Of a stretch of 58,770 bases of DNA, positions 5,189 through 58,770 are shown in pieces. The notes under the pieces are model-generated. The model saw only the letters and a list, made by a program, of their open reading frames with translations. It made no database searches and was not told the origin of the DNA. The stretch is from Acetobacterium malicum subsp. dehalogenans DSM 11527 (GTDB taxonomy: Bacteria; Bacillota; Clostridia; Eubacteriales; Eubacteriaceae). The DNA lies in the NCBI RefSeq assembly GCF_000472665.1, contig NZ_AXAC01000032.1:1-58770 (forward strand), in the 5' to 3' direction. A program made the position numbers and the translations under genes. The stretch's first letter is position 1. Every line of letters starts with the position of its first letter.

Positions 5189-7327
5189 ATGAATGATCTC
5201 TTTTCTCTCAACGAACAAAGTCGTCAGCAACTCGAAGGAATTTTTAACGTCAGTATGGAATTTCTTTGCATCACCAATGGACGGGGAGAAATTCTAAAGA
5301 CAAACCAGGTTTGGGAAACTAAACTAGGCTACCTGACCCCAGAACTTCTCGGTAAAAATCTCATTGACCTTGTCCATCCCAATGATGTGGCAAACCTGCT
5401 TCTTGCCCTTAAAAAACTCACCGCCGCAAACAAAATTCTGGCCTTTACCAGCCGTTTACGTTCTACTAACGGCGACTATCATTTTGTGACCTGGCAGTTT
5501 CAATGGATTGATGAATTGATTTACAGTAGTGCCAAAGATCTGACTGAACTCTATCATGCAAAAAAGGATGCTGAATCTGCCGAATTTTCAAAAAATCAAC
5601 TACTTTCTATTTTATCTAATGAAATTCATGAACCACTGGACAGTTTGTCCCTATTTTTGCAGTTAATTAGCAAAACCCAATCCATCTCGGAGCAGAATAT
5701 CTGTCTGGAAAACATCCGACTGTCCACAGAATTTCTGGCGAATCTGATCAATGGAATTCTGGCCACAGATAAAAGCAATCCGACCGTTCATGATGTGACT
5801 TCCTTTAATTTTCACGACACTATCGAAGATGCTATTATTCCTTTGATCGTCAGCGCCAAACGCCATAATATTACCATCGATTTGTCGATACATCCAAAGA
5901 TCCCGCCAACTGTTCAGGGCGATCCGCAACGACTCAAACAAATTATTTCATTTTTAGTCCTCAATGCCATCAAATGTCTGGAACGCGGTAAAATCAGTGT
6001 CGAGGCAACTCCCGAAAACACCGACAAAGCCGTTTTTAAGATTTATTTTAGTGTCAAGACTTCTGGCCTGACACACTCACAAGGCAGTGCCGATGATCCT
6101 TTTTCCAGCTATGATTCCCATGGCAGCACTCAAGAAAGCAACCTCAATTTTGGTCTGGAACTGGTGAAAAATCTAGTTGAAACGATGAATGGCAAATTGT
6201 CTGCCAGTCGCGACAATGAGAGCGGCTATGACTTTTCGTTTCATGTTCTATTGCTCAGAGACAATGCCCCGAATATCAAAAACGACCGCAGTATGGGCGG
6301 GCGAGTTTTACCCATGTATAATCAGAACATTCGCCTTAAAGCAGAAGAACTGCGGGCAATTGAACAACTCCGAAATGATCAGCCTAAATCCGATCGCCAG
6401 GCCATTGCGATAAAAAGAGAGCGGATCTTAATCGTTGATGATTCCCCTGAGAACACCCAATTACTTGCTCAGATGTTAGTCGAAAATTATGAAATTCTAG
6501 TCGCTAACAGCGGAAAAGATGCCTTGGCTATCGTTCAACAGGTTCCGGCCCCGGACCTGATTCTATTGGATCTGAGCATGCCGGACATGAGTGGCTATGA
6601 GGTCTGCAAACAAATTCAGCTGGAAGAAAGTACCATGGCCATTCCGATAATTTTCCTGACAATTCTGAGTGACCCGGAAAATGAAGCATCTGGCTTGCAA
6701 TCCGGCGCCGTAGATTTTATTTCCAAGCCCTTTGATCTCCCCAGGGTCGAGGAAAAAATCAAAAATCATCTGGCGCTTAAGCATTATCGGGAAATTCTAA
6801 GCACTACTGCCGATACCGACGCCTTAACGCAGATCCCGAACCGCCGCCGCTTCGAAGAAATGCTGGCCATCGAAATTCGCAAAGCACGGCGTAATAACAC
6901 CACCCTGTCGGTGATCAGAATTGATATCGACTATTTCAAACGTTACAATGACACTTATGGACATTTGGAGGGCGATGATTGTCTCCGGGAAGTTGCCGAT
7001 GCCCTTAAGAAAACACTAAAACGTGCCGGTGATCTGGTTGCCCGTTGGGAGGGCGAGGAATTCATCTGTCTGCTCCCGGACACAAATTTGAAGGGTGCAG
7101 CCCATGTTGCTGAAAATATCAGAAAAGCAGTTTTGAATCTGAGAATTCCCCACCAGTCCTCGCCAGTAGAAAAAGTTGTCACCTTATCACTCGGCGTCGC
7201 CAGCGGGACCAGGTCTCATGAAAATCAAGCCGAAGATTCTTTTGAAGCCCTGCTCGATCACGCCCAGATGGCTCTGACACAATCTAAGGATACCGGTCGA
7301 AACCGGGTCTTTGTGTACCGAAAATAA
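5189..7327 (+). CDS. PAS - degenerate histidine-kinase module - receiver - GGDEF protein
   Basis: This is a 712-residue predicted soluble diguanylate cyclase with unusual architecture. It has a PAS domain (about 10-120), a HisKA-like helix pair (about 130-195), a HATPase_c-like region (about 235-355), a receiver (about 410-530, phospho-acceptor Asp in LLDLSMP) and GGDEF (about 543-710). The H-box reads SNEIHEPL where kinases have SHEIRTPL, so the phospho-acceptor His is Asn and autophosphorylation is not expected. The GGDEF signature is EGEEF (first Gly replaced by Glu). The inhibitory RxxD site (RAGD, five residues upstream) and the DIDYFKRYNDTYGH metal region are intact. The start has a clear AAAGGAG. 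A paralogue at 24722-26107 lacks the kinase-like module. Domain identity is firm; activity is inference. Confidence 0.9.
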   Translation: MNDLFSLNEQSRQQLEGIFNVSMEFLCITNGRGEILKTNQVWETKLGYLTPELLGKNLIDLVHPNDVANLLLALKKLTAANKILAFTSRLRSTNGDYHFVTWQFQWIDELIYSSAKDLTELYHAKKDAESAEFSKNQLLSILSNEIHEPLDSLSLFLQLISKTQSISEQNICLENIRLSTEFLANLINGILATDKSNPTVHDVTSFNFHDTIEDAIIPLIVSAKRHNITIDLSIHPKIPPTVQGDPQRLKQIISFLVLNAIKCLERGKISVEATPENTDKAVFKIYFSVKTSGLTHSQGSADDPFSSYDSHGSTQESNLNFGLELVKNLVETMNGKLSASRDNESGYDFSFHVLLLRDNAPNIKNDRSMGGRVLPMYNQNIRLKAEELRAIEQLRNDQPKSDRQAIAIKRERILIVDDSPENTQLLAQMLVENYEILVANSGKDALAIVQQVPAPDLILLDLSMPDMSGYEVCKQIQLEESTMAIPIIFLTILSDPENEASGLQSGAVDFISKPFDLPRVEEKIKNHLALKHYREILSTTADTDALTQIPNRRRFEEMLAIEIRKARRNNTTLSVIRIDIDYFKRYNDTYGHLEGDDCLREVADALKKTLKRAGDLVARWEGEEFICLLPDTNLKGAAHVAENIRKAVLNLRIPHQSSPVEKVVTLSLGVASGTRSHENQAEDSFEALLDHAQMALTQSKDTGRNRVFVYRK

Positions 7328-7387: not shown

Positions 7388-8272
7388 TTATAATTTGAAG
7401 CAATTGCTTTCAATCAGATAATCTCTCACACCGCGAAGCGAAGCATGACTGGTAGCCTGACTGATTCTGGGATATACAGTCAAATGATCCATGCGGTTTT
7501 CGACCTTACTCAGATTATAGCCTTCCGGCAGCACCACAAATTTTCCAAATCCCGGTTCAATAGCCCCTTGGGGGCAGCCATAGACGCAGCGCAGACAAAT
7601 CACACAGTCATTTCCAAAGATATGCTTGCCATCAATGATTTTGATATTATCCCGGGGACACAGTTTTTCACACCAACCACAATCGACACACTTATCATTA
7701 ACCTTAAGCCGGCGACCAAAAAAACTTCCCCCTAAAACTTCAAAATAGCCAAGTTTTGAAGCAATCCGATCAATTCCATAAGGTGCTGTTCGATGTCGTT
7801 TCCCTGCCATGATTTCCACTACCACCTTATCCACAATCACCGGGGTGGCATGGAGTACCATGGCACAGAGGCTTTCATCAAAACCAACTAAGAAATTTGA
7901 CGGCATCACGACCATTTTTTCATATATCACATTGTATCCTTTTTTCTCAAGGTGACGAATTGTGGCCGTTCGACAGGCCGTATTGGGCGATATTTCTCCG
8001 CCGCCGGACACTGAAACAACCACAGCCGGCCGGCCCTCGACCGGCGGGATTTTTTCCAGCCATTCCACAATTGGTTTGGGGGCATTAAACGCATACACCG
8101 GAAAAAGCAAGACCAGCACATCGCCAAAAACAACCGGAATTGTCCCACCTTTTAATTCTGTCCGTTGAACGGTTATCGATCTTTCCATAAATGAACGTTC
8201 AAATGCATCTGCAACCCGGGCAGTTCCTCCAGTACCCGTAAAATATACAAGATTCGCGCTTTTAAAATCCAT
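7388..8272 (-). CDS. EFR1-family ferredoxin-flavodoxin fusion protein
   Basis: The 294-residue product joins an N-terminal flavodoxin-like domain (VYFTGTGGTARVADAF as FMN phosphate loop, then LLFPVYAFNAPKP) to a C-terminal ferredoxin with two [4Fe-4S] motifs: CVDCGWCEKLCP and CVICLRCVYGCP. Such EFR1 proteins are frequent in Clostridia and are presumed to pass electrons between ferredoxin-type donors and flavin; the partner is unknown. The chosen start is the ATG at 8272, five bases after GAGGG. A further in-frame ATG at 8320 has no ribosome binding site. The gene is convergent with the PAS-GGDEF gene and shares its terminator. Confidence 0.85.
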   Translation of the reverse strand: MDFKSANLVYFTGTGGTARVADAFERSFMERSITVQRTELKGGTIPVVFGDVLVLLFPVYAFNAPKPIVEWLEKIPPVEGRPAVVVSVSGGGEISPNTACRTATIRHLEKKGYNVIYEKMVVMPSNFLVGFDESLCAMVLHATPVIVDKVVVEIMAGKRHRTAPYGIDRIASKLGYFEVLGGSFFGRRLKVNDKCVDCGWCEKLCPRDNIKIIDGKHIFGNDCVICLRCVYGCPQGAIEPGFGKFVVLPEGYNLSKVENRMDHLTVYPRISQATSHASLRGVRDYLIESNCFKL

Positions 8273-8591
8273 TTTTCCCTCACAATCTATACTGTTGCCA
8301 ATTTTATCTAAATGAACCATTACATGTATTACTATGCTTTGATCTTGTCTTTATCTCAAATATTTCCGTTTTTGTAACTTTTATACGCTATTTTTATTCA
8401 TTTAGGTATCCCAAGGATCGCAGTTTATCAATATGACTTCATTCTGATAATTTTTACCCTCTTTCTTTTTGTTTAAACACCCTCTGCACAGATCGATTTA
8501 TGATTAAAAAGCTTTACAGCCAGCCCAAATCAAGTATAGAATATAAAAAACAATTACACGCTTTCGATAAACTGGAAAGGAAACCCCGAAC

Positions 8592-49686: not shown

Positions 49687-50286
49687 ATGACTACGACTTT
49701 ATCAAACACCGCCAAAGTTACCCGTCAAAACTTGATTGATTCTTTTTGGTTATTATATTGCAAAAAAAGCATTGAAAAAATTACCGTCAAGGAAATCTGT
49801 GACATAGCCGGCTACAATCGCTCGACTTTTTATGTTTATTTTAAAGATGCCTATGAAATTCCGGCAGAAATTGAAGAACAGACCATTACGGTGGAGGATT
49901 TTAAAAGCATTGTTATTAAGAACCTTTTTCACGGCAATCTTTTTCGTGATCATCGCAAAAAAGCCATTTTAAAATCAATTCTCGAATTTTTTGAAAAAAA
50001 TAAGACCTATCTCCCGGTTTTATTGGGGGAAAACGGCGATCCCCACTTCAGGCAAAAGGTCTTGAAGAAGCTCACCCCGACGGTGCTGTCGATGTATAAA
50101 AAACTGACACCCCAGGAACTGCTGGAAGTAAGCTATTTAATGGAATACCAGAGTGCGGCTATACTCAGTACGATTGCAAAATGGTATGCCAACGACAAAG
50201 ACCTGCCGACGGATCAGTTTCTGGAATTGCTTTTGGCCGTGACGACCAACGGCGTTCAATGCGAGCTATCAAAATACCGGCGCTGA
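49687..50286 (+). CDS. TetR family transcriptional regulator
   Basis: The 199-residue protein has an N-terminal TetR helix-turn-helix (ITVKEICDIAGYNRSTFYVY, about 32-51) and an all-helical ligand/dimer domain. The ATG follows GAGG. It is divergent from the ABC exporter and therefore its likely repressor. A terminator follows. Confidence 0.92.
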   Translation: MTTTLSNTAKVTRQNLIDSFWLLYCKKSIEKITVKEICDIAGYNRSTFYVYFKDAYEIPAEIEEQTITVEDFKSIVIKNLFHGNLFRDHRKKAILKSILEFFEKNKTYLPVLLGENGDPHFRQKVLKKLTPTVLSMYKKLTPQELLEVSYLMEYQSAAILSTIAKWYANDKDLPTDQFLELLLAVTTNGVQCELSKYRR

Positions 50287-50306
50287 ATTTAATCACTTAA
50301 CAAGCC

Positions 50307-50340
50307 AAACCGATTCTCATATGTGAGGGTCGGTTTTTTT
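50307..50340 (+). terminator. Intrinsic terminator after the TetR gene
   Basis: AAACCGA pairs with TCGGTTT, with inner stem CTCATATGTGAG, followed by a T run. From here to 50582 I see no further element in the A/T-rich upstream region of the malic enzyme gene. Confidence 0.82.
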
Positions 50341-50582
50341 ATTGCCCAGACAGAATATTCATGACAGCGCAGCGCTCATCTCGATGACCGAATCTCATTC
50401 AAATAACGTTAAATATTTATCAAAGTATTCTTTATGACCATAACTCTTTTTTAAATTTCATAATCTTCCCTTGCTAAAAATCCGGTGTTATCATGTGGCC
50501 ATCGGTTCGGTAGCAGAATTTTATCAAATTTTATCGTCCGATTATTTAGAAATTTATCTCTAAAAATGAAAGGGAAAAAGAA

Positions 50583-51755
50583 ATGAATTATTCAGAAGAA
50601 AGTTTAAAAATGCACGAAGTGCATTCCGGAAAAATTGAGGTTATCTCAAAGGTGCGCATCGAAACCCGGGATGATTTAAGTAAGGCTTATACTCCCGGCG
50701 TCGCAGAACCCTGTCGCCGCATTCATGCGGATGCTGAAGATGTTTATAAGTACACCTCAAAGGGCAATATTGTGGCCGTCGTCACTGATGGCACCGCTGT
50801 CCTTGGTCTGGGGGATATTGGTCCCATGGCAGGTCTGCCAGTGATGGAAGGTAAAGCCATCCTGTTTAAGGAGTTTGCCGGCGTGGATGCCTTCCCGATC
50901 TGTCTGGATACAAAAAACGTTGATGAAATCGTTAAAACAGTAAAACTCATCGCTCCTGGATTTGGCGGCATTAATTTAGAAGATATCGGTGCTCCGCGAT
51001 GCTTTGAAATCGAAGAGCGGTTAAAAAAAGAACTCGATATCCCGGTTTTTCACGATGATCAGCACGGCACGGCGATCATTGTTCTGGCCGGCATCATTAA
51101 CGCCCTGAAAGTAGTTGGGAAAAAGATTGAGGATGTAAACGTCGTCGTTAATGGCGCCGGTGCGGCCGGTACAGCCATCGCTAAGCTGTTGCTTTCTACC
51201 GGCGTAACAAACCTGATTGCCTGTGATAAACCGGGAATCCTTTACCGCGGCATGGCCGGTCTGGATGATGCCAAAAAAGAACTGGCTGAAATAACCAATC
51301 CAGATAATATCCAGGGAACCCTGGCGGATGCATTGGTTGGTGCCGACATCTTTATCGGCGTTTCGGCACCCGGGATTGTCAGCCAGGACATGGTCCGTTC
51401 CATGAATCCGGATGCGATTTTATTTGCCATGGCCAACCCCACCCCGGAAATTATGCCGGATGAAGCCAAAGCCGCCGGAGCCCGGGTCATCGGAACCGGT
51501 CGTTCGGATTTTCCCAATCAGGTGAATAATGTTTTAGCTTTCCCAGGTATCTTCAGAGGAGCGCTGGATGTCCGGGCCACCGAGATTAATGAAGAAATGA
51601 AGCTGGCCGCCGCCCATGCCATCGCGGCCATGATTAAAGATGAAGATCTATCGGAAAATAATATCATTCCCAATGCTTTAGACAAGTCCGTTGCCGGTAA
51701 TATTGCCAGCGCCATTAAAAAAGCAGCCAGAAAAACTGGCGTCGCCCGAATTTAA
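50583..51755 (+). CDS. Malic enzyme (malate oxidoreductase, decarboxylating)
   Basis: The 390-residue short-form bacterial malic enzyme converts malate to pyruvate and CO2 with NAD(P). Seen: catalytic Tyr in KAYTPGVAEPC, Lys in KAILFKEFAGVDAFPI, metal ligands in FHDDQHGTA and the dinucleotide loop VVNGAGAAGTA. Cofactor preference is not decided. The ATG follows GAAAGGG. It is 24 bp upstream of a KdgT-family transporter and probably forms an uptake-plus-catabolism operon, with a CitA/DcuS-type sensor pair downstream. Confidence 0.95.
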   Translation: MNYSEESLKMHEVHSGKIEVISKVRIETRDDLSKAYTPGVAEPCRRIHADAEDVYKYTSKGNIVAVVTDGTAVLGLGDIGPMAGLPVMEGKAILFKEFAGVDAFPICLDTKNVDEIVKTVKLIAPGFGGINLEDIGAPRCFEIEERLKKELDIPVFHDDQHGTAIIVLAGIINALKVVGKKIEDVNVVVNGAGAAGTAIAKLLLSTGVTNLIACDKPGILYRGMAGLDDAKKELAEITNPDNIQGTLADALVGADIFIGVSAPGIVSQDMVRSMNPDAILFAMANPTPEIMPDEAKAAGARVIGTGRSDFPNQVNNVLAFPGIFRGALDVRATEINEEMKLAAAHAIAAMIKDEDLSENNIIPNALDKSVAGNIASAIKKAARKTGVARI

Positions 51756-51779
51756 GAAAGGTAAATGAGGTGTAGAAAA

Positions 51780-52784
51780 ATGCAAATTCCAATTAAGAAA
51801 ACGCTGGATCGGATTCCCGGCGGGATGATGGTTGTGCCCCTGTTTTTAGGGGTGCTGGTCAATACCTTCTTCCCCCAATTTTTAGAGATTGGCGGTTTCA
51901 CCACCGCCTTATTCAGCCCCAAGGCATCATCAACTGTTTTAGCCTGTTTTATGTTTTTAATCGGTTCCCAGATTAATTTTAAACTGGCCCCCAAGGCGAT
52001 TAAAAAAGGCGCTTTACTGATTACCGGTAAGTTCATTGTCGGCGCCGGGATTGGTATCTTCGTTGGTTTAGTATTCGGCCCGGCTGGCGTCCTCGGCTTA
52101 TCCCCGCTGGCCATTTTGGCGGCCTTAACCAACTGTAATGGCGGTCTGTATGCCTCCCTGGCTTCCCAATATGGAGACGAAACCGATGTCGGTGCCTATG
52201 CGCTGCTTTCGATTAAAGATGGTCCCTTCTTTACCCTGGTGGCTCTTGGGGCCTCCGGTCTGGCCCAGGTTCCTTTTATGGCCCTGGTGGGTGTGCTAGT
52301 TCCCATTGTCATTGGGATGATTCTGGGAAATCTGGACTCAGATATGCGGTCATTCCTGGGCAGCAGTAAAATGCTGCTGATCCCCTTCTTCTCCTTCCCG
52401 CTGGGTGCCAGTATGGACCTGCAGACCATTGTCACTGCCGGAGGGCCTGGCATTCTGCTGGGCGTGGTTGCCGCCATCACGGGTATCGGCGCTTATGTCA
52501 TGCTGAAACTTTTTAAAGAAGAACCGATCATTGGTCTGGCAACCGGTTCAACCGCCGGCAATGCCGTTGCGACCCCGGCCGCTGTAGCCGCTGCCGACCC
52601 CACCCTGGCGGTAATTGCCACCGTGGCCACCGCTCAGGTTGCCGCTGCCTGTGTGGTCTCGGCCATCATCTGCCCCTTTATTGTCACCACGGCCTTTAAA
52701 CTATTGCGTAACCATCAGGAAAAAAAGGCCCGATCAGGTCAATTTGCCCGCCAAACGGTAACCTCCGAAGCCGAAGCCGCCTGA
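51780..52784 (+). CDS. KdgT-family (2-keto-3-deoxygluconate permease-like) transporter
   Basis: The 334-residue membrane protein has about ten TM segments. The N-terminus MQIPIKKTLDRIPGGMMVVP, then TNCNGGLYASLASQYG and FALGN-like SFPLGASMDL, closely follow the KdgT family. Because it is coupled to malic enzyme and a dicarboxylate-type sensor, the substrate here is more likely malate or a related acid than ketodeoxygluconate (inference). The chosen ATG 51780 follows GAGGTG; an ATG at 51765 (AAAGG, closer spacing) is the alternative. Confidence 0.85.
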   Translation: MQIPIKKTLDRIPGGMMVVPLFLGVLVNTFFPQFLEIGGFTTALFSPKASSTVLACFMFLIGSQINFKLAPKAIKKGALLITGKFIVGAGIGIFVGLVFGPAGVLGLSPLAILAALTNCNGGLYASLASQYGDETDVGAYALLSIKDGPFFTLVALGASGLAQVPFMALVGVLVPIVIGMILGNLDSDMRSFLGSSKMLLIPFFSFPLGASMDLQTIVTAGGPGILLGVVAAITGIGAYVMLKLFKEEPIIGLATGSTAGNAVATPAAVAAADPTLAVIATVATAQVAAACVVSAIICPFIVTTAFKLLRNHQEKKARSGQFARQTVTSEAEAA

Positions 52785-52802
52785 TCAATATTCCCCTGTA
52801 TA

Positions 52803-52896
52803 AAAACGCGGAAACTAAGACAAGTTCGAAAGTTTTGAGATATAATGTCATCAACAAAATCTTTCCTGAGCGACTGTCTGTTAGTTTCCGCGTTTT
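52803..52896 (+). promoter_or_regulatory. Long inverted repeat enclosing a candidate promoter for the sensor-kinase operon
   Basis: AAAACGCGGAAACTAAGACA (52803-52822) is repeated in inverse at 52875-52896 (TGTCTGTTAGTTTCCGCG...), with one 2-nt bulge. The 52-bp interior contains TATAAT at 52841-52846, with AAGACA 18 bp upstream inside the left arm. Read-through RNA from the transporter gene could form the full hairpin and end in TTTT, while RNA begun inside would carry only the right arm. Confidence 0.6.
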
Positions 52897-52938
52897 ACTG
52901 TTGTGTTTTTTGTCAATTGAAGAAACAGGTGAATTGAA

Positions 52939-54546
52939 ATGAGAAAAAAAATCAAACTGCATACCAAGATTGCCCTGCTGGTTACCACTGTGGTTATCAT
53001 TTCGATTTCCATTATTGTCGCTTTTGCGGTTTCCTGGATGACTAACATGATTGAGGATAAGGCCCGTACCAATCTGATGAATGTGTCGATGATGGTTGCC
53101 CATTCCGACGAGATTATCCAGGCCCTGGAAAATAGCGATCCGGACGGCCAGATTGCCAACTATGTCGACAACCTGCTCCCCGGTCTGGAACAGGTCGAGT
53201 ACATCATTGTCGTGGATAAAGAGGGCATCCGCCACTCCCACCCGAATCCGGCGATGATCGGCCAGGCCTTTGTCGGCGGTGATGAACAGCGGGCCGCTGC
53301 CGAAGGCGAAGCCTATATCTCCGAAGCCACCGGCACCCTGGGTAAAGCGCTCCGGGCTTTTGCCCCTATCTATGATTCTAAAAATAATCAAGAAATCGGC
53401 TTTGTGGCTGTTGGTACCCTCACCGACAATATTGAGTCCGCCAAGAATACTGCCCTTTTATATATTGTTCTGATCAGTCTTGGCGCTTTAGCCGTCGGAG
53501 TTAGCGGCGCTTTTCTGCTATCCAACAACATCAAAAAGATTCTACTGGGGCTGGAACCCGAAGAAATCAGCCAACTTTACACCGAAAAAACGGGGATGCT
53601 GGAAGCCATCCATGAGGGCCTAATTGCCGTTGACAACGCTGGCCGTATTACCCTGATCAATGATGCCGCCATCGCGATTCTAAAATTCGGAGCCGGGTTC
53701 GACAAAGCCAATCTTCTCGGTCAGCATGTCGAAGCGGTTATTCCCAATACCGGGATGCTCAAGATCCTGGAAACCGGACAGTCTGAATTTGACCAGGAAC
53801 AGCGCATTGATCATACCATCATTGTTACCAATCGCGTTCCAATCATGGACGGCTCTGCAATCATCGGTGCGATTGCCAGCTTCCGGGACAAAACCGAGGT
53901 GACAAAATTAGCCGAAGAACTGACCGGTGCAAAAAAATTGGCCTGGTCACTGCGAGCCCAGAATCATGAATTTATGAATAAGCTGCATACCATCTCCGGC
54001 CTGATCCAACTGGAAGAATATCATGAAGCCCTGGATTTTATTTCAGATGTGGCTAAAAGTCGCAATAACATCAGTGATATTTTAACCCGTAACATCCAGA
54101 ATCCCGCGGTCTCAGCACTGTTACTGGCTAAATATGCCAAAGCCGAAGAATGCCGGGTTAAGCTGGTTATTAATGCCGAATCCCGGTTGACCCGGCTGCC
54201 CCGGTACATGACTGCTGAAGACATTGTTTCCGTCATCGGCAACCTGGTCGAAAATTCTCTCGATGCGGTTAAAAACGATGGTACCGGCCTGATTGAGATT
54301 AGAGTCCTGCAAAATGATGCGACCTTAACCATCCAGGTCCGGGACAACGGCGGGGGCATTCCGCTGGCTGATCAGGACAAAATTTACACCCAGGGTTTTT
54401 CAACCAAAAAAGACCAGCGCGGCAACGGCATGTATATCGTCAAAAATATCATCGACGCTGGCGGCGGAACCATCAGCCTTAAATGTGATGGCGGTGTTTT
54501 CTGGGATATCAATATTCCCATGAATCGAGGTGAAAATAATGATTGA
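52939..54546 (+). CDS. CitA/DcuS-type sensor histidine kinase
   Basis: The 535-residue kinase has TM1 (about 10-33), a periplasmic-type PDC/Cache sensor (about 40-175, with GIRHSHPNPAMIGQAFVGGD as in the citrate/dicarboxylate sensors), TM2 (about 178-200), a cytoplasmic PAS (about 220-330) and the kinase core. The phospho-acceptor is His in RAQNHEFMNKLH (about 344); the ATP site has NLVENSLDAV and DNGGGIPL. Genes of this class sense citrate, fumarate or malate. The ATG follows CAGGTG, and the gene overlaps its response regulator by 8 bp. Confidence 0.94.
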   Translation: MRKKIKLHTKIALLVTTVVIISISIIVAFAVSWMTNMIEDKARTNLMNVSMMVAHSDEIIQALENSDPDGQIANYVDNLLPGLEQVEYIIVVDKEGIRHSHPNPAMIGQAFVGGDEQRAAAEGEAYISEATGTLGKALRAFAPIYDSKNNQEIGFVAVGTLTDNIESAKNTALLYIVLISLGALAVGVSGAFLLSNNIKKILLGLEPEEISQLYTEKTGMLEAIHEGLIAVDNAGRITLINDAAIAILKFGAGFDKANLLGQHVEAVIPNTGMLKILETGQSEFDQEQRIDHTIIVTNRVPIMDGSAIIGAIASFRDKTEVTKLAEELTGAKKLAWSLRAQNHEFMNKLHTISGLIQLEEYHEALDFISDVAKSRNNISDILTRNIQNPAVSALLLAKYAKAEECRVKLVINAESRLTRLPRYMTAEDIVSVIGNLVENSLDAVKNDGTGLIEIRVLQNDATLTIQVRDNGGGIPLADQDKIYTQGFSTKKDQRGNGMYIVKNIIDAGGGTISLKCDGGVFWDINIPMNRGENND

Positions 54547-55213
54547 GGTAATGATCGTCGAAGATGATCCGATGGTTCGGGATATTAATGCCAAATTTCT
54601 GGAACGGATTGACGGTTTCAAGCTCTGTGCCGCGGTGGCCAGTCTTGACAATGCGCGGAAGTACATTACCATTAAAAAACCGGATTTGATTCTGCTGGAT
54701 GTCTATCTGCCGAATGAAAACGGCATTGATTTTCTCAAATGGATAAGGGAAAAAAATATTGATGTCGATATTATTTTAATCACCGCCGATAAATCGATTG
54801 ACCGCATCCAGGAGGCCTTTCGCTACGGCGCTGTAGACTATCTGATTAAGCCCTTCAATTTTGAGCGGTTTAAAGAAGCCCTGCTGCAGTTTAAAAGCCG
54901 CCATGAGCAATTTAAAAAGAATCAGGAAATCGAACAACCGGATCTCGATCGGCTTATTTCAAATCCCGGTGCTGTTCCCCAATCCGACGATTTTGCCAAG
55001 GGCTTTAATAAATACACCTATCAGTCGATCTGGAATGAAATTGAAGCGCGTCACGTTGGCGACTTCACTGCCGATGTGTTAGCTGAAAAACTCGGTATCG
55101 CTCGGGTTACGGTACGGCGCTATCTGGAACATATGGAAAAAGAGAAAAAAATCAAAAAACAAGTTGAATATGGGAAGGTCGGCCGGCCCCAGTATCGCTA
55201 TCATAAACTGTAA
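54539..55213 (+). CDS. CitB/DcuR-type response regulator
   Basis: The 224-residue protein has a receiver with VEDDP and phospho-acceptor Asp in LLDVYLP (about 54), switch Thr in LITADK and Lys in YLIKPFNFERF, plus a C-terminal helix-turn-helix (LAEKLGIARVTVRRYLEHME) as in CitB/DcuR. The start ATG at 54539 follows GAGGTG; an in-frame ATG nine bases upstream is less well placed. It probably activates the malic enzyme/transporter genes. Confidence 0.94.
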   Translation: MIEVMIVEDDPMVRDINAKFLERIDGFKLCAAVASLDNARKYITIKKPDLILLDVYLPNENGIDFLKWIREKNIDVDIILITADKSIDRIQEAFRYGAVDYLIKPFNFERFKEALLQFKSRHEQFKKNQEIEQPDLDRLISNPGAVPQSDDFAKGFNKYTYQSIWNEIEARHVGDFTADVLAEKLGIARVTVRRYLEHMEKEKKIKKQVEYGKVGRPQYRYHKL

Positions 55214-55240
55214 GACCACCATTCCTCCCCGGAACTTAAA

Positions 55241-55276
55241 CAGCCCTTAAATAAGTCTTTGACTATTTAAGGGCTG
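55241..55276. terminator. Hairpin between convergent genes
   Basis: CAGCCCTTAAATA pairs with TATTTAAGGGCTG; it is followed by TTACTTT, so termination is plausible but weak in T content. Confidence 0.6.
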
Positions 55277-55303
55277 TTACTTTATGCTATTTTTAATGCC
55301 GCT

Positions 55304-56050
55304 TTAACGATTCTTTTTCTCCTGGGCATTTTTTAGGCTCATTGCTTTTTCTCGGCATTCATCTGCATAGTCTTCATAGGCTTCCAGATAATCTTCATAA
55401 TCGATGGTGCAATCGCGGTCTTCAAAAGATTTGCAGTATCCTTCCAGGGCTTTCCAATCCCGGCTGTAGGCATGAAAACTCAGGGCATGATGGGTATAGG
55501 AACCCAGCTCGTTGATCCCGGCTTCTCTGGCGATCGTTCTTGACAGTTCGATCAGGGCAAAAATATTCATGGCGACTGCCTTGACCCCATCATTGCTTCT
55601 AAATACTACGTCGGTATTTAATTTGCCGTCCTTAACAGTGTAATGAATGAGCTGCAGGCAGGGTGGATGATTTAGTCTGGCGGCCTCCTGATTGGCGACA
55701 TGGAGAGTCGCCTGTCTGGTTCCCGGATCTTCTTTCAGTCTATTGATCACAAAATCAATGTTTTTGGAAAACAGATCATGATAGGTATAACCATACATGT
55801 CCTTTTCAAAATCCTTGGTACCTTCAACAATTTCCAGGACATAGTCCACCAGGGTTTCCAGCCCGGTTGGCATCGCCATGGTAATTTTTATATCCTGCAC
55901 ACTGTCGATATCCATCAGCAGATGAATTTCTTTTAAACTGTCTTCCCGATCCTGATTCTTCCCGATGACGATGTCGGCCTGATTCAAAGCCTTCATCGCC
56001 GCCTCGATGCCCTTATGCAGTTCGGTTTCGTGAATGTAAGTAACCATCAT
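55304..56050 (-). CDS. Divergent thymidylate-synthase-fold protein
   Basis: The 248-residue protein shows the thymidylate synthase core in degenerate form: RQATLHVAN, the nucleophile-type Cys in NHPPCLQL (about residue 130; canonical PPCH...Q), FRSNDGVKAVAMNIFAL (canonical QRSxD...PFNIA), then GSYTHHALSFHAYSRDW (canonical H..GD.H.Y..H). The catalytic Cys, Arg-Ser-x-Asp and Asn are kept, but the folate-side Trp pair and the PPCHxxxQF glutamine context differ. It may act on a pyrimidine nucleotide with another one-carbon chemistry, or be a hydroxymethylase-like enzyme. The start is ATG 56050 or a GTG two codons earlier; neither has a good ribosome binding site. Confidence 0.7.
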   Translation of the reverse strand: MMVTYIHETELHKGIEAAMKALNQADIVIGKNQDREDSLKEIHLLMDIDSVQDIKITMAMPTGLETLVDYVLEIVEGTKDFEKDMYGYTYHDLFSKNIDFVINRLKEDPGTRQATLHVANQEAARLNHPPCLQLIHYTVKDGKLNTDVVFRSNDGVKAVAMNIFALIELSRTIAREAGINELGSYTHHALSFHAYSRDWKALEGYCKSFEDRDCTIDYEDYLEAYEDYADECREKAMSLKNAQEKKNR

Positions 56051-56256
56051 TTTCACATCGTATCAGCTGATCTCTAAATTTCAAACTGCTGACACGAGAT
56101 CCTTTCATTTAATAATAACGTCTCCGTTAAACTGTTGCCTAGATGATCATACCATATTTGGGGGCAAATTTCATCATTGCAAAGTCAAATTTGGGCCACT
56201 TTATCGCTTCAATTTTGCATCGCTGACCATGATATCACGGCGGGTCTAAGATCTCT

Positions 56257-56895
56257 CTAATAGCTTTCTAAAAATTCTTCCGTTACAGCACCTCTTTTTA
56301 TCGGCATCCCGTGGGAGGGGCAAATCCAATCGTATTGGAGCTCTTTGATGATTGAAATCGATCGCTTCGCTTCCTCTTGATCCCAGATTAAAAAGCGCGG
56401 CAACAGATCTAATTTGCCCCTGACCTCCTGAAATAAATCCCCAATAAACAATACATTTCGATATTGAAAAACTGTGTGTCCCGGTGTATGGCCCGGGGCA
56501 TGAATCACCCGAACCTCCCCAAAGCATTGATTGGCCTGATAGCTGCCTGAAATATTCGGTTTAGGTGGGCGAGCCATTGTTTGCAGAATTCGTTTGATTC
56601 CCGGTCGATTTTTTTTACCAATAATATAGGGCACATCTTCCTGGGGTGCCCAAACCTCAGCTTGGGTGGCTTCCTGCAAGGCTTTAGCATTGCCGATGTG
56701 ATCAATATCATGGTGGGTCAGCAGGATCTTTTTAATATTCTGAACCGCTCCGCCCAGCGCTTCCAGTTCTGCCAGAATCTTCTCTGCCAACCCTGGCATC
56801 CCTGTATCGATAAGGATCCCCTGATCTGACTGGATAAAAAACACATGACCGTGACTGGCACAATCAAGCTGATAAACATTTTCGATGATTTCCAT
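56257..56895 (-). CDS. MBL-fold hydrolase
   Basis: The 212-residue metallo-beta-lactamase-fold protein has the metal motif LLTHHDIDHIG, a variant in which the third position of HxHxDH is Asp, seen in a subgroup of the superfamily. It also has APGHTPGH (third metal His), FIGDLF and a final PSHGMP. The ATG at 56895 follows GGGAGGG. The frame extends 32 codons upstream, but that stretch contains the terminator of the neighbouring gene and is rejected. Substrate unknown; unrelated in detail to the hydrolase at 4303. Confidence 0.88.
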   Translation of the reverse strand: MEIIENVYQLDCASHGHVFFIQSDQGILIDTGMPGLAEKILAELEALGGAVQNIKKILLTHHDIDHIGNAKALQEATQAEVWAPQEDVPYIIGKKNRPGIKRILQTMARPPKPNISGSYQANQCFGEVRVIHAPGHTPGHTVFQYRNVLFIGDLFQEVRGKLDLLPRFLIWDQEEAKRSISIIKELQYDWICPSHGMPIKRGAVTEEFLESY

Positions 56896-56931
56896 CTTAT
56901 TACCCTCCCAAAGCAAATTTTTGTCAGATTC

Positions 56932-56960
56932 ATAAAAGAAAAGCGGCCAGAACGGCCGCT
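56932..56960 (-). terminator. Intrinsic terminator of the surface-protein gene
   Basis: On the minus strand AGCGGCC pairs with GGCCGCT around GTTCT, followed by TTTCTTTT. Confidence 0.85.
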
Positions 56961-57005
56961 GAACAGTATCACTAATTGTAGATTCTGTCATCTTCGCGTA
57001 AAATT

Positions 57006-58289
57006 TCAGGCCTGTGCCTCGCGTTTACTTACCACCAAAGCAAGTCCGATCAACATGATCAGGGCTGCTCCCGCCACGGTAGCTTCCGATGCAGTGGCAT
57101 CCACCCCGGTTTTGGGATTGGCTGAACTGGTATGATGTTTTTTGAATGTTTGCGTCGAAAGCGGTTCAAGATATAAACAGGCCGCATCACGATTCACATC
57201 CCCATAAATCGCACTGATATCAATGCTGCCTTCGGCCACAAGCGCCTTGGCGACGGCTCCGGATGTGCATAAATCAAGAATACCGTTATTTATGATAATC
57301 TTATTATAGGAGAACAACGCACCGGCATCACCATGATCAGCAATCGACTCGACAACCGTATAGCCGCCATTAAAAATCAGTTTGTCGTAAGCTCCGATAC
57401 CGCGGCTGTAACTCGTTGGACTATCGGTGAAAGCGTTAATAGCTCCGCCATTAACGACCAGATCGCCAAACGCAAATAAACCAAAGGCCCCGGCATAATC
57501 GCTATTATAAGCGGTCACATCGATGTTCCCACCGTTAATGGTGAGATTACCCATTGTCATAACTTCAGCATTATCACCGGCCAGTATTCCAACCGCTGAG
57601 CTGGAGCTTTCATATCCGACCGCTGCGATATCATAGGTCCCACTGTCAATCACTAGATTCCCAACCACGTTGATGCCACCTCCCATTAAATCAGGGGTGG
57701 CCTGCCCTTCAGCAATCAGCGTGCCCGTCCCGCTGGCATTCATATCACCTTCAAGTTTAACGGCAAAACCATTATCGGTTTTGATACTATTGGTACCAAG
57801 CAGGACCAATTTAAACGGAACCGCTGTCGATTTGACATCCAACTTTTCGCCGATAAAATTATTTAATGTCAGCTCGTTGGCTACTGAATCATATGCATAG
57901 TCGGACCCGGTATTGGTGACCAGGACATCTATGATCACACCATTCTGAGTTAAGCACAAATATGTGGCTGCCTGGGTTTCGATTGTTTCCGGTTCAATCG
58001 TTGATATAACCGGCTGCTCCTCAACAATATTGGTTTCAGGACTATTATCGGCCGGCACCGTTATTTCAGTGGCAGTAGGTAGCAGGGTAATATCGGTACT
58101 GGTTGCCATCGTTTCTGTCAAAACAATCTCTGGATCTGCTTCTTCTGCGGTTACTAAAACCAGACCTAATTCGCTAGCCGGTGCTTGGTCACTGACATCT
58201 TCTCCGGCGGCCAAAGCTGAGACCGGAATCAGCATCGACAACATGGCCACAACCATCAGCAGGGATAAGAATTTTGATATTCGCTTCAT
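57006..58289 (-). CDS. Wall-anchored surface protein with beta-repeat region and NPKTG signal
   Basis: The 427-residue precursor has a signal peptide (about 1-28, ending VSALA) and a Thr/Glu-rich spacer (about 30-110). A repetitive region (about 150-345) follows, with recurring short strands and turns such as LTINGGNID, LVVNGGAIN, LIFNGGYTV and IIINNGILD, suggesting a parallel beta-helix. The C-terminus is a sorting signal: NPKTG (about 391-395), a hydrophobic helix and KREAQA. NPxTG is the type recognised by the class B sortase of Clostridioides difficile; no sortase gene is present here. The ATG at 58289 follows GGAGAA. Possible role: adhesion or carbohydrate contact. Confidence 0.85.
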   Translation of the reverse strand: MKRISKFLSLLMVVAMLSMLIPVSALAAGEDVSDQAPASELGLVLVTAEEADPEIVLTETMATSTDITLLPTATEITVPADNSPETNIVEEQPVISTIEPETIETQAATYLCLTQNGVIIDVLVTNTGSDYAYDSVANELTLNNFIGEKLDVKSTAVPFKLVLLGTNSIKTDNGFAVKLEGDMNASGTGTLIAEGQATPDLMGGGINVVGNLVIDSGTYDIAAVGYESSSSAVGILAGDNAEVMTMGNLTINGGNIDVTAYNSDYAGAFGLFAFGDLVVNGGAINAFTDSPTSYSRGIGAYDKLIFNGGYTVVESIADHGDAGALFSYNKIIINNGILDLCTSGAVAKALVAEGSIDISAIYGDVNRDAACLYLEPLSTQTFKKHHTSSANPKTGVDATASEATVAGAALIMLIGLALVVSKREAQA

Positions 58290-58489
58290 TTTATTCTCCA
58301 TTTCTAACTGCAATTCGATGTATTGCTGGGATTGACAGTGTTTGTTAAATAACTGCTATTCTATCTTTCCGTTTTTATTGTTTACATCATTGGATATGTT
58401 TACGATATCACAATCCAAGAAAAATGTCGATCAATTATTCCATCTTTCTTAGATAGCAACTGCCTCTTAATCAAAAATCAAATGATCGA

Positions 58490-58770
58490 GTAGCTAGAAA
58501 TCCGGGTAATTAGTCCGGATTTCTTTGCTCTCACAGAACCGTGCTTACGTTTGCCGTACACGGCTCCTGAAATCTCTCACCGAATTAATAATAATTCGAC
58601 AGTAACCCAACTTTATATTGACATAAATCGATGAGTCCCAGATCTTCAAAGTACTGGTTTGGGAGTAACATATGGATGATATGGACATTTGAATTCTTCC
58701 ATTTCGTCACGGCCATCTTTTCACCACTACCTTTGATTCCCTGTTTTCTCATTGCCTTATGCATGGCTTT
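58490..58770 (-). mobile_element. Group II intron, 3' end (domains V and VI; 5' part outside window)
   Basis: On the minus strand the domain V core reads GAGCCGTGTACGG, AAACGTAAGC, then ACGGTTCTGTGAGAG (58566-58528), the highly conserved group II catalytic hairpin. Domain VI follows as GAAATCCGG/CCGGATTTC (58523-58497). The intron probably ends at an AC dinucleotide at 58490. The open frame of its maturase ends 19 nt before domain V. The region 58290-58489, between the intron and the surface-protein start, shows only A/T-rich DNA. Confidence 0.85.
58585..58770 (-). CDS. Group II intron-encoded reverse transcriptase/maturase, C-terminal fragment
   Basis: The last 61 codons and TAA stop are in the window. 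WKNSNVHIIHMLLPNQYFED, then LGLIDL, is typical of the C-terminal (maturase or DNA-binding) end of intron-encoded proteins (W.NS..H..LPN.YF...GL..L). The reverse transcriptase domain is beyond the window edge. Close linkage to domain V supports the call. Confidence 0.8.
   Translation of the reverse strand, partial: KAMHKAMRKQGIKGSGEKMAVTKWKNSNVHIIHMLLPNQYFEDLGLIDLCQYKVGLLSNYY

Follow-up and report, generated by a model that had tools for sequence, protein, structure and literature searches.

A divergent short-form clade of the thymidylate synthase fold in Acetobacterium, gut Clostridia and viral contigs, without a tie to dihydrofolate reductase

Introduction

There are two textbook routes to thymidylate, one through ThyA together with dihydrofolate reductase (DHFR) and the other through ThyX without DHFR. 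What is the role of a protein that resembles ThyA only in part, in a genome that already encodes ThyX? We meet this question in the window, by which we mean the whole 58,770-nucleotide stretch of DNA analyzed here (contig NZ_AXAC01000032.1 of Acetobacterium malicum subsp. dehalogenans DSM 11527). A sequence-only reading had described one of its genes as a degenerate enzyme of the thymidylate synthase (TS) fold beside a dicarboxylate module, perhaps with a one-carbon or deoxynucleotide chemistry that had not been described in this organism. Here we combine profile searches, predicted structures, a family tree and surveys of thymidylate genes across genomes, and ask which reaction the protein is likely to carry out.

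ThyA and ThyX are described as structurally unrelated (PMC3352284, PMC3498832). Two further papers describe ThyA and FolA as functionally coupled, since ThyA yields dihydrofolate (DHF), and folA as often missing from organisms with thyX (PMC9931769, PMC1971073); according to the latter, bacteria that lack DHFR must have a DHF-reducing activity, which has not always been identified (PMC1971073).

Results

A conserved gene in a distinct clade

The gene is read from the minus strand (ATG at 56050, stop at 55304, with an alternative GTG upstream at 56056) and encodes 248 amino acids; the plus strand of 55304-56050 contains stops. The three motifs that the sequence-only reading had listed as kept are all located on the minus strand: NHPPC at residues 127-131, RSND (its RSxD) at 151-154, and the Asn of the nucleotide site at 162. 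Comparing the window gene with nine orthologous loci in our collection (eight titled Acetobacterium, the ninth a Firmicutes MAG), we find an uncorrected pS of 0.27-0.79 against a pN of 0.02-0.12, and the gene is under strong purifying selection. Orthologues in these nine loci and in same-genus genomes are 79-96% identical. The label 'degenerate' is not supported, because selection is strong and the residues of the dUMP site are invariant across the family (see below).

PF00303 is the sole Pfam match of the window protein (44.9 bits, cut-off 24.3), which places it in the superfamily of TS and pyrimidine hydroxymethylases. The best NCBIfam match is the methanogen TS model TIGR03283, at 91.3 bits and thus short of the cut-off of 174.55, with window residues 32-201 aligned on model positions 27-200 of 201. 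Eight further family members score 104.5-139.4 bits against this model, all under 174.55, and the model matches all 67 members of alignment A2 (66 of the 80 collection loci plus the window protein); it is through this HMM only that the family was compared with methanogen TS. The canonical TS models of NCBIfam have cut-offs far above the window protein, which reaches 38.3 bits for TIGR03284 (equivalog cut-off 108.35), and no Thy1 (PF02511) match is listed for it up to an E-value of 10. The NCBI curated cut-offs, including that for methanogen TS, are missed by the members tested, and the window protein falls in a short-form TS clade that stands apart from canonical ThyA.

The tree agrees: all family members group together, apart from the seven rows of canonical ThyA (support 100/100). 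Within this clade, Acetobacterium groups with a small clade, Eub (93/88), and phage members are interspersed with those from the gut, with an inner order that is uncertain where, by the program's own warning, long branches meet. The gut clade is roughly 30-37% identical to the Acetobacterium protein. Among the best 80 of 86 confirmed loci in our collection scan there are nine Acetobacterium orthologues, the rest coming mostly from Lachnospiraceae, Oscillospiraceae and other Clostridia. IMG/VR adds 33 viral loci, of which seven lie on contigs 116-244 kb long, and a search of 325 phage records and 45 plasmid records found no homologue covering 80% of the query. The gene is present in 13 of 19 genomes of the genus Acetobacterium and absent from six (four 81-87% complete, two 98-100%), with no match among 18 genomes from other genera of the same taxonomic family. 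In an even sample of the class (293 genomes, completeness at least 95), nine genomes carry a family member; the five copies fetched (from G137, G198, G303, G338 and G382) are 41-72% identical to the family. Another divergent PF00303 protein (G275, locus L183; 83.7 bits), from a genome that has ThyX, was considered as a member and dropped from the counts, being nearer to canonical ThyA. A literature search found nothing on this TS-fold clade.

The dUMP site is invariant and the folate side is altered

Residues were mapped to canonical TS by an HMM-HMM alignment with Clostridia ThyA (probability 98), using E. coli numbering and residue roles that we take as standard. Counts refer to a family alignment of 97 rows, of which 22 are from Acetobacterium (13 and 9 rows that overlap, so that some genomes are repeated). 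All eight mapped dUMP-site residues, namely Arg112, Cys131, Arg151, Ser152, Asp154, Asn162, His193 and Tyr195 (E. coli R126, C146, R166, S167, D169, N177, H207 and Y209), show no variation across the 97 rows (Table 1). It was correct, as the sequence-only reading had it, that some canonical residues are changed, although Arg112, His193 and Tyr195 are kept as well. At the R127 position 75 rows have Arg and the 22 Acetobacterium rows have Gln; further changes are Lys157/Ala158 for L172/G173 and Leu132 for H147.

Table 1. Position of the gene and its mapped features in the window
Feature	Coordinates	Strand	Remarks
Divergent TS-fold gene	55304..56050	-	248 aa; ORF, PF00303/NCBIfam and predicted structure
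N-terminal region, residues 1-86	55793..56050	-	Helix 11-23, strands 27-31 and 36-48, helix 64-76
Tyr88-Thr89-Tyr90	55781..55789	-	97/97 rows
Arg112 and Gln113	55712..55717	-	E. coli R126 and R127 positions; Arg112 in 97/97 rows
Cys131	55658..55660	-	Catalytic nucleophile position, E. coli C146; 97/97 rows
Arg151-Ser152-Asn153-Asp154	55589..55600	-	E. coli R166/S167/D169; 97/97 rows
Asn162	55565..55567	-	E. coli N177, uracil-type recognition; 97/97 rows
His193 and Tyr195	55466..55474	-	E. coli H207/Y209, sugar binding; 97/97 rows
C-terminal helix, residues 218-247	55307..55399	-	Replaces canonical TS C-terminus

The N-terminal 110 or so residues had been called unusual; the sequence is indeed divergent, but the region belongs to the TS fold, with residues 1-86 TS-like in topology, the predicted model aligning with TS from about residue 10 and the methanogen TS match beginning at residue 32. 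Judged from aligned structural ranges rather than a residue alignment, Asp34-Arg35 would fall at the place of E. coli D20-R21. Tyr88-Thr89-Tyr90 likely contains the equivalent of Tyr94. The catalytic Glu of TS is E58 in E. coli; candidates for its equivalent are Tyr70 and Glu73, in a half of the protein that is unreliably aligned in the HMM-HMM alignment. The end of canonical TS forms the folate lid. The window protein ends in a helical ...AQEKKNR, whereas the 22 canonical ThyA compared (those of 31 loci that passed a motif filter) have V(A/S)V or VAI as their last residues.

Structural neighbors of the predicted fold

AlphaFold2, given 67 aligned members, predicts the window protein with a mean pLDDT of 92.7. 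Its best solved matches are the dCMP hydroxylase AfhB of phage HY126 (9iqu, Z 20.9; 9iqc, Z 20.7), followed by the CMP 5-hydroxymethylase MilA (Z 18.7-19.4) and canonical TS (Z up to 18.0, rmsd 2.7-3.0 over about 205 residues). The TS fold with conserved Cys and Arg, proposed from sequence alone, is thus borne out by a confident model, its TS matches and 97 of 97 rows. A gut member, L068 (pLDDT 97.1), gives the same order: AfhB 22.4 and 22.1, MilA 21.5-22.0 and TS 19.7. Since we treat Z differences under 1 as ties, L068 gives a tie between AfhB and MilA, and for the window model MilA is ahead of TS by a slight 0.7 to 1.4; the predicted ranking of AfhB over MilA over TS may be taken as suggestive only. 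For one of the two best matches the entry title names a riboflavin-dependent monooxygenase together with dCMP and FAD, and the viral predicted structures matched are TS and dCMP-hydroxymethylase-type proteins.

Other thymidylate routes in the same genomes

The genome of the window has a single PF00303 gene, the window gene itself, and one ThyX, so the search for other thymidylate genes turned up no canonical thyA and did turn up ThyX. Across the genus, ThyX is found in 18 of 19 genomes, and two of these genomes (G001, G003) have two ThyX matches each.

The relatives differ. We took 50 of the 71 non-Acetobacterium loci to genome searches; their titles are nearly all Clostridia, with one Acholeplasmatales. 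PF00303 is matched in all 50 genomes, by family members as judged by score and range, and PF02511 in two, both partial. Besides family members, G087 has a full canonical ThyA and G108 an N-terminal canonical ThyA fragment; G064 and G082 each have a second PF00303 copy, which also belongs to the family. In 47 of the 50 genomes (all except G087, G108 and G109) no TS outside the family was found, and the family therefore most likely makes dTMP. Thymidine kinase is found in 7 of the 50. In the Eub clade, the nearest relatives, it is mostly present (in G052, G059, G061, G063 and G073, and not in G064; G052 and G061 seem to be one and the same genome), so a TS is not forced there.

The class sample points the same way: of nine family carriers, six are without other TS, two (Acetobacterium) have ThyX and one has ThyA. 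Having no other TS is the case for 6 of 9 carriers against 30 of 284 other genomes (p = 0.00015), where six ThyX matches that fall below the cut-off are not taken as ThyX. That 30 of the 293 genomes have neither PF00303 nor PF02511 above cut-off is an observation in its own right. We searched 12 of these 30, nine of them chosen because of DHFR presence, for thymidine kinase (PF00265): it is present in two and absent from ten, so other routes or missed genes exist, and the absence of known routes is by itself no proof of a TS role. Six genomes of the sample, from one genus (G122, G149, G193, G259, G273 and G287; f17, g36), have no PF00303 match; all they carry is a ThyX-like protein of about 212-256 amino acids that scores below threshold and is possibly another divergent TS.

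The family is not tied to DHFR

In the class sample, PF00186 DHFR accompanies canonical ThyA in 131 of 132 genomes (124/125 and 7/7), ThyX alone in 27 of 121 and the family alone in 3 of 6. Among the relatives' genomes in which the family is the only TS, 20 of 47 have DHFR. Compared with canonical ThyA, Fisher's test gives 3e-18 for 20/47 and 0.0002 for 3/6, with related genomes treated as independent although they are not. On the tree, genomes without DHFR fall in clusters (6 changes, compared with 17 after shuffling and a forced minimum of 3; L079 was too short and is left out), and this clade-following pattern speaks against random gaps in draft genomes. In 19 of the 50 genomes DHFR, thymidine kinase, RibD_C, ThyX and canonical ThyA are all missing. 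RibD_C-type proteins were considered as a general DHFR substitute and rejected, as PF01872 is found only in G061, G098 and G107 of the 28 DHFR-negative genomes. The listed active-site positions are alike in DHFR-positive and DHFR-negative clades except for W or Y at 35, and a filter for positions that distinguish these clades passed, beyond the hand-listed ones, only position 92. In Acetobacterium, DHFR is found in 0 of 19 genomes; this fits organisms with ThyX and says only that a second, tetrahydrofolate (THF)-oxidizing TS would be awkward there.

No conserved partner genes

The dicarboxylate module does lie beside the gene in the window, but adjoins it in only two of nine orthologous loci (L024, L026); we reject the link, and the dicarboxylate genes are incidental neighbors. 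Nor is any operon or pathway partner conserved: counting up to six ORFs on each side, the largest neighbor cluster occurs in 8 of 69 non-Acetobacterium loci (L043 and L089, where the ORF caller missed the target, were dropped from the 71). At the Rfam gathering score no RNA element was found near the gene within 50000-58770; the sole match there is a group II intron (RF00029) near the contig end, at 58485-58568 on the minus strand (45.4 bits).

Within four ORFs of phage members we find, in some loci, dUTPase (4) and dCTP-deaminase-like proteins (3) among the 96 of 220 neighbor proteins scanned (with the first 25 of 69 families listed), and thymidylate kinase once (L149 and L151, with no called target, were dropped). 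Two near-identical viral contigs (L155:6587-7216, plus strand, and L156:3220-3849) carry a ThyX-like gene, small (210 amino acids) and divergent (Thy1, 23.4 bits, just under the 24.8 cut-off), that overlaps the family gene, placing ThyA-type and ThyX-type genes side by side. Three of eight annotated phage relatives of this ThyX-like gene are named ThyX. On L145/L146 the same gene is split into 6659-6856 and 8063-8470, with a gap of about 1.2 kb following residue 66; an intron or a mobile insert may be the cause.

Discussion

On balance we judge it probable, with considerable room for doubt, that the window protein is an active, non-canonical ThyA-fold one-carbon enzyme acting on dUMP, with dTMP as its most likely product, and hence a second TS beside ThyX. 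The phosphate of dUMP would be held by Arg112, Arg151 and Ser152, the uracil by Asn162 and the sugar by His193 and Tyr195. Cys131 would then attack C6, and a one-carbon unit would be placed on C5, most likely from methylene-THF, which should be plentiful in an acetogen; here we infer substrate, product and carbon donor alike. TS function is likely for the gut clade. For the Acetobacterium protein our confidence is moderate, because it is only about 30-37% identical to the gut clade and ThyX is present. Most of the genomes in which the family is the sole TS belong to that gut clade, and Gln at the R127 position and scores under the NCBIfam cut-offs weigh against a TS as well. The gene is not required in Acetobacterium, given ThyX in 18 of 19 genomes and its own absence from 6 of 19. 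The suggestion of a reaction not described for this organism remains plausible, but the likeliest reaction is the ordinary dUMP to dTMP, already expected of ThyX. What is doubtful is an ordinary THF-oxidizing cycle in Acetobacterium and the DHFR-less relatives, because DHFR is missing and features of the folate site and C-terminus are altered.

This doubt leads to a special form of the same explanation, which we regard as possible but rather unlikely: a THF-sparing TS on the ThyA fold, taking its hydride from a flavin or other reductant and regenerating THF as with ThyX. It would account for a family not tied to DHFR (20/47; 3/6), unlike canonical ThyA (131/132), for the clustering of DHFR absence on the tree, for the 19 genomes without any of the five genes, and for the 0 of 19 in Acetobacterium; the missing canonical C-terminus and the replacement of L172 and G173 by K157 and A158 are consistent with it, and an FAD-containing entry among the two best matches of the predicted model may be too. 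Against this, an unrecognized DHF reductase would explain the same pattern, the listed active-site positions do not differ between DHFR classes except at 35, the completeness of the 50 genomes is unreported, and AfhB only ties with MilA for the L068 model. We consider it unlikely that the family represents a widespread second ThyA-fold chemistry, in which dUMP becomes dTMP without THF going to DHF, for example with a flavin, so that FolA-type DHFR is dispensable and a third thymidylate route exists.

The protein might instead be a dUMP 5-hydroxymethylase, adding a one-carbon unit and water to give 5-hydroxymethyl-dUMP without redox chemistry, like MilA and the phage hydroxymethylases. We regard this, too, as possible but rather unlikely. 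DHFR would be unnecessary, the family has phage members, MilA follows the top match closely and outranks TS with both predicted models, and the best viral matches include phage proteins of the dCMP hydroxymethylase type. However, such an enzyme could not provide dTMP where the family is the only TS, and conserved pathway neighbors are found neither in Acetobacterium nor in gut bacteria. Hydroxymethylases of dCMP and CMP carry Asp at the N177 position, where the family has Asn in 97 of 97 rows.

A nucleotide-binding or regulatory protein without catalytic activity, or a paralogue undergoing decay, would fit the presence of ThyX and the absence from 6 of 19 same-genus genomes, and is very unlikely because Cys, Arg, Asn, His and Tyr do not vary and purifying selection is strong. 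Similarly unlikely is a hydroxylase or monooxygenase acting like AfhB on a pyrimidine nucleotide: AfhB is the top structural match (tied with MilA for L068) and the top PDB sequence match (family profile, E 1.7e-20), but oxygen chemistry is a poor fit for Acetobacterium, an obligate anaerobe, and AfhB aligns Asp with the family's Asn162.

How does the dUMP enzyme that we favor compare with known systems? It shares with canonical ThyA (TIGR03284, PRK01827 models, PF00303) the fold, the nucleophile Cys and the dUMP-site residues, and differs in Gln at R127 (in Acetobacterium), in K157/A158, in its C-terminus and in having no tie to DHFR. Methanogen TS (TIGR03283) is the best NCBIfam match over most of the length and is likewise a short form, whereas the present family is bacterial and viral, falls below the cut-off and has an extra C-terminal helix. 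The archaeal enzymes include the family's nearest curated relatives, and one paper describes archaeal thymidylate synthases as scarcely characterized (PMC9931769).

AfhB (9iqu, 9iqc), on which a literature search found no paper, is the closest solved structure and sequence, also with a short chain, but is 21% (window) and 28% (L068) identical over about 200 residues, its entry titles name dCMP, and it has Asp at the Asn162 position. MilA has the same fold (Z as given above), with CMP as substrate and Asp again aligned at Asn162; its gene sits in a nucleoside-antibiotic cluster, and the present family has no conserved neighborhood.

We are left with a ThyA-fold family that occurs in acetogens, gut Clostridia and viral contigs, often with no other TS found beside it, and that does not go hand in hand with DHFR. 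Should it act as a TS, the annotation of its carriers' genomes and the antifolate sensitivity predicted for these bacteria need revising. ThyX, present beside it in Acetobacterium, differs in family, the window protein having no PF02511 match, and would have a similar effect on the folate cycle if THF is spared; the family would then be a new solution for an essential reaction.
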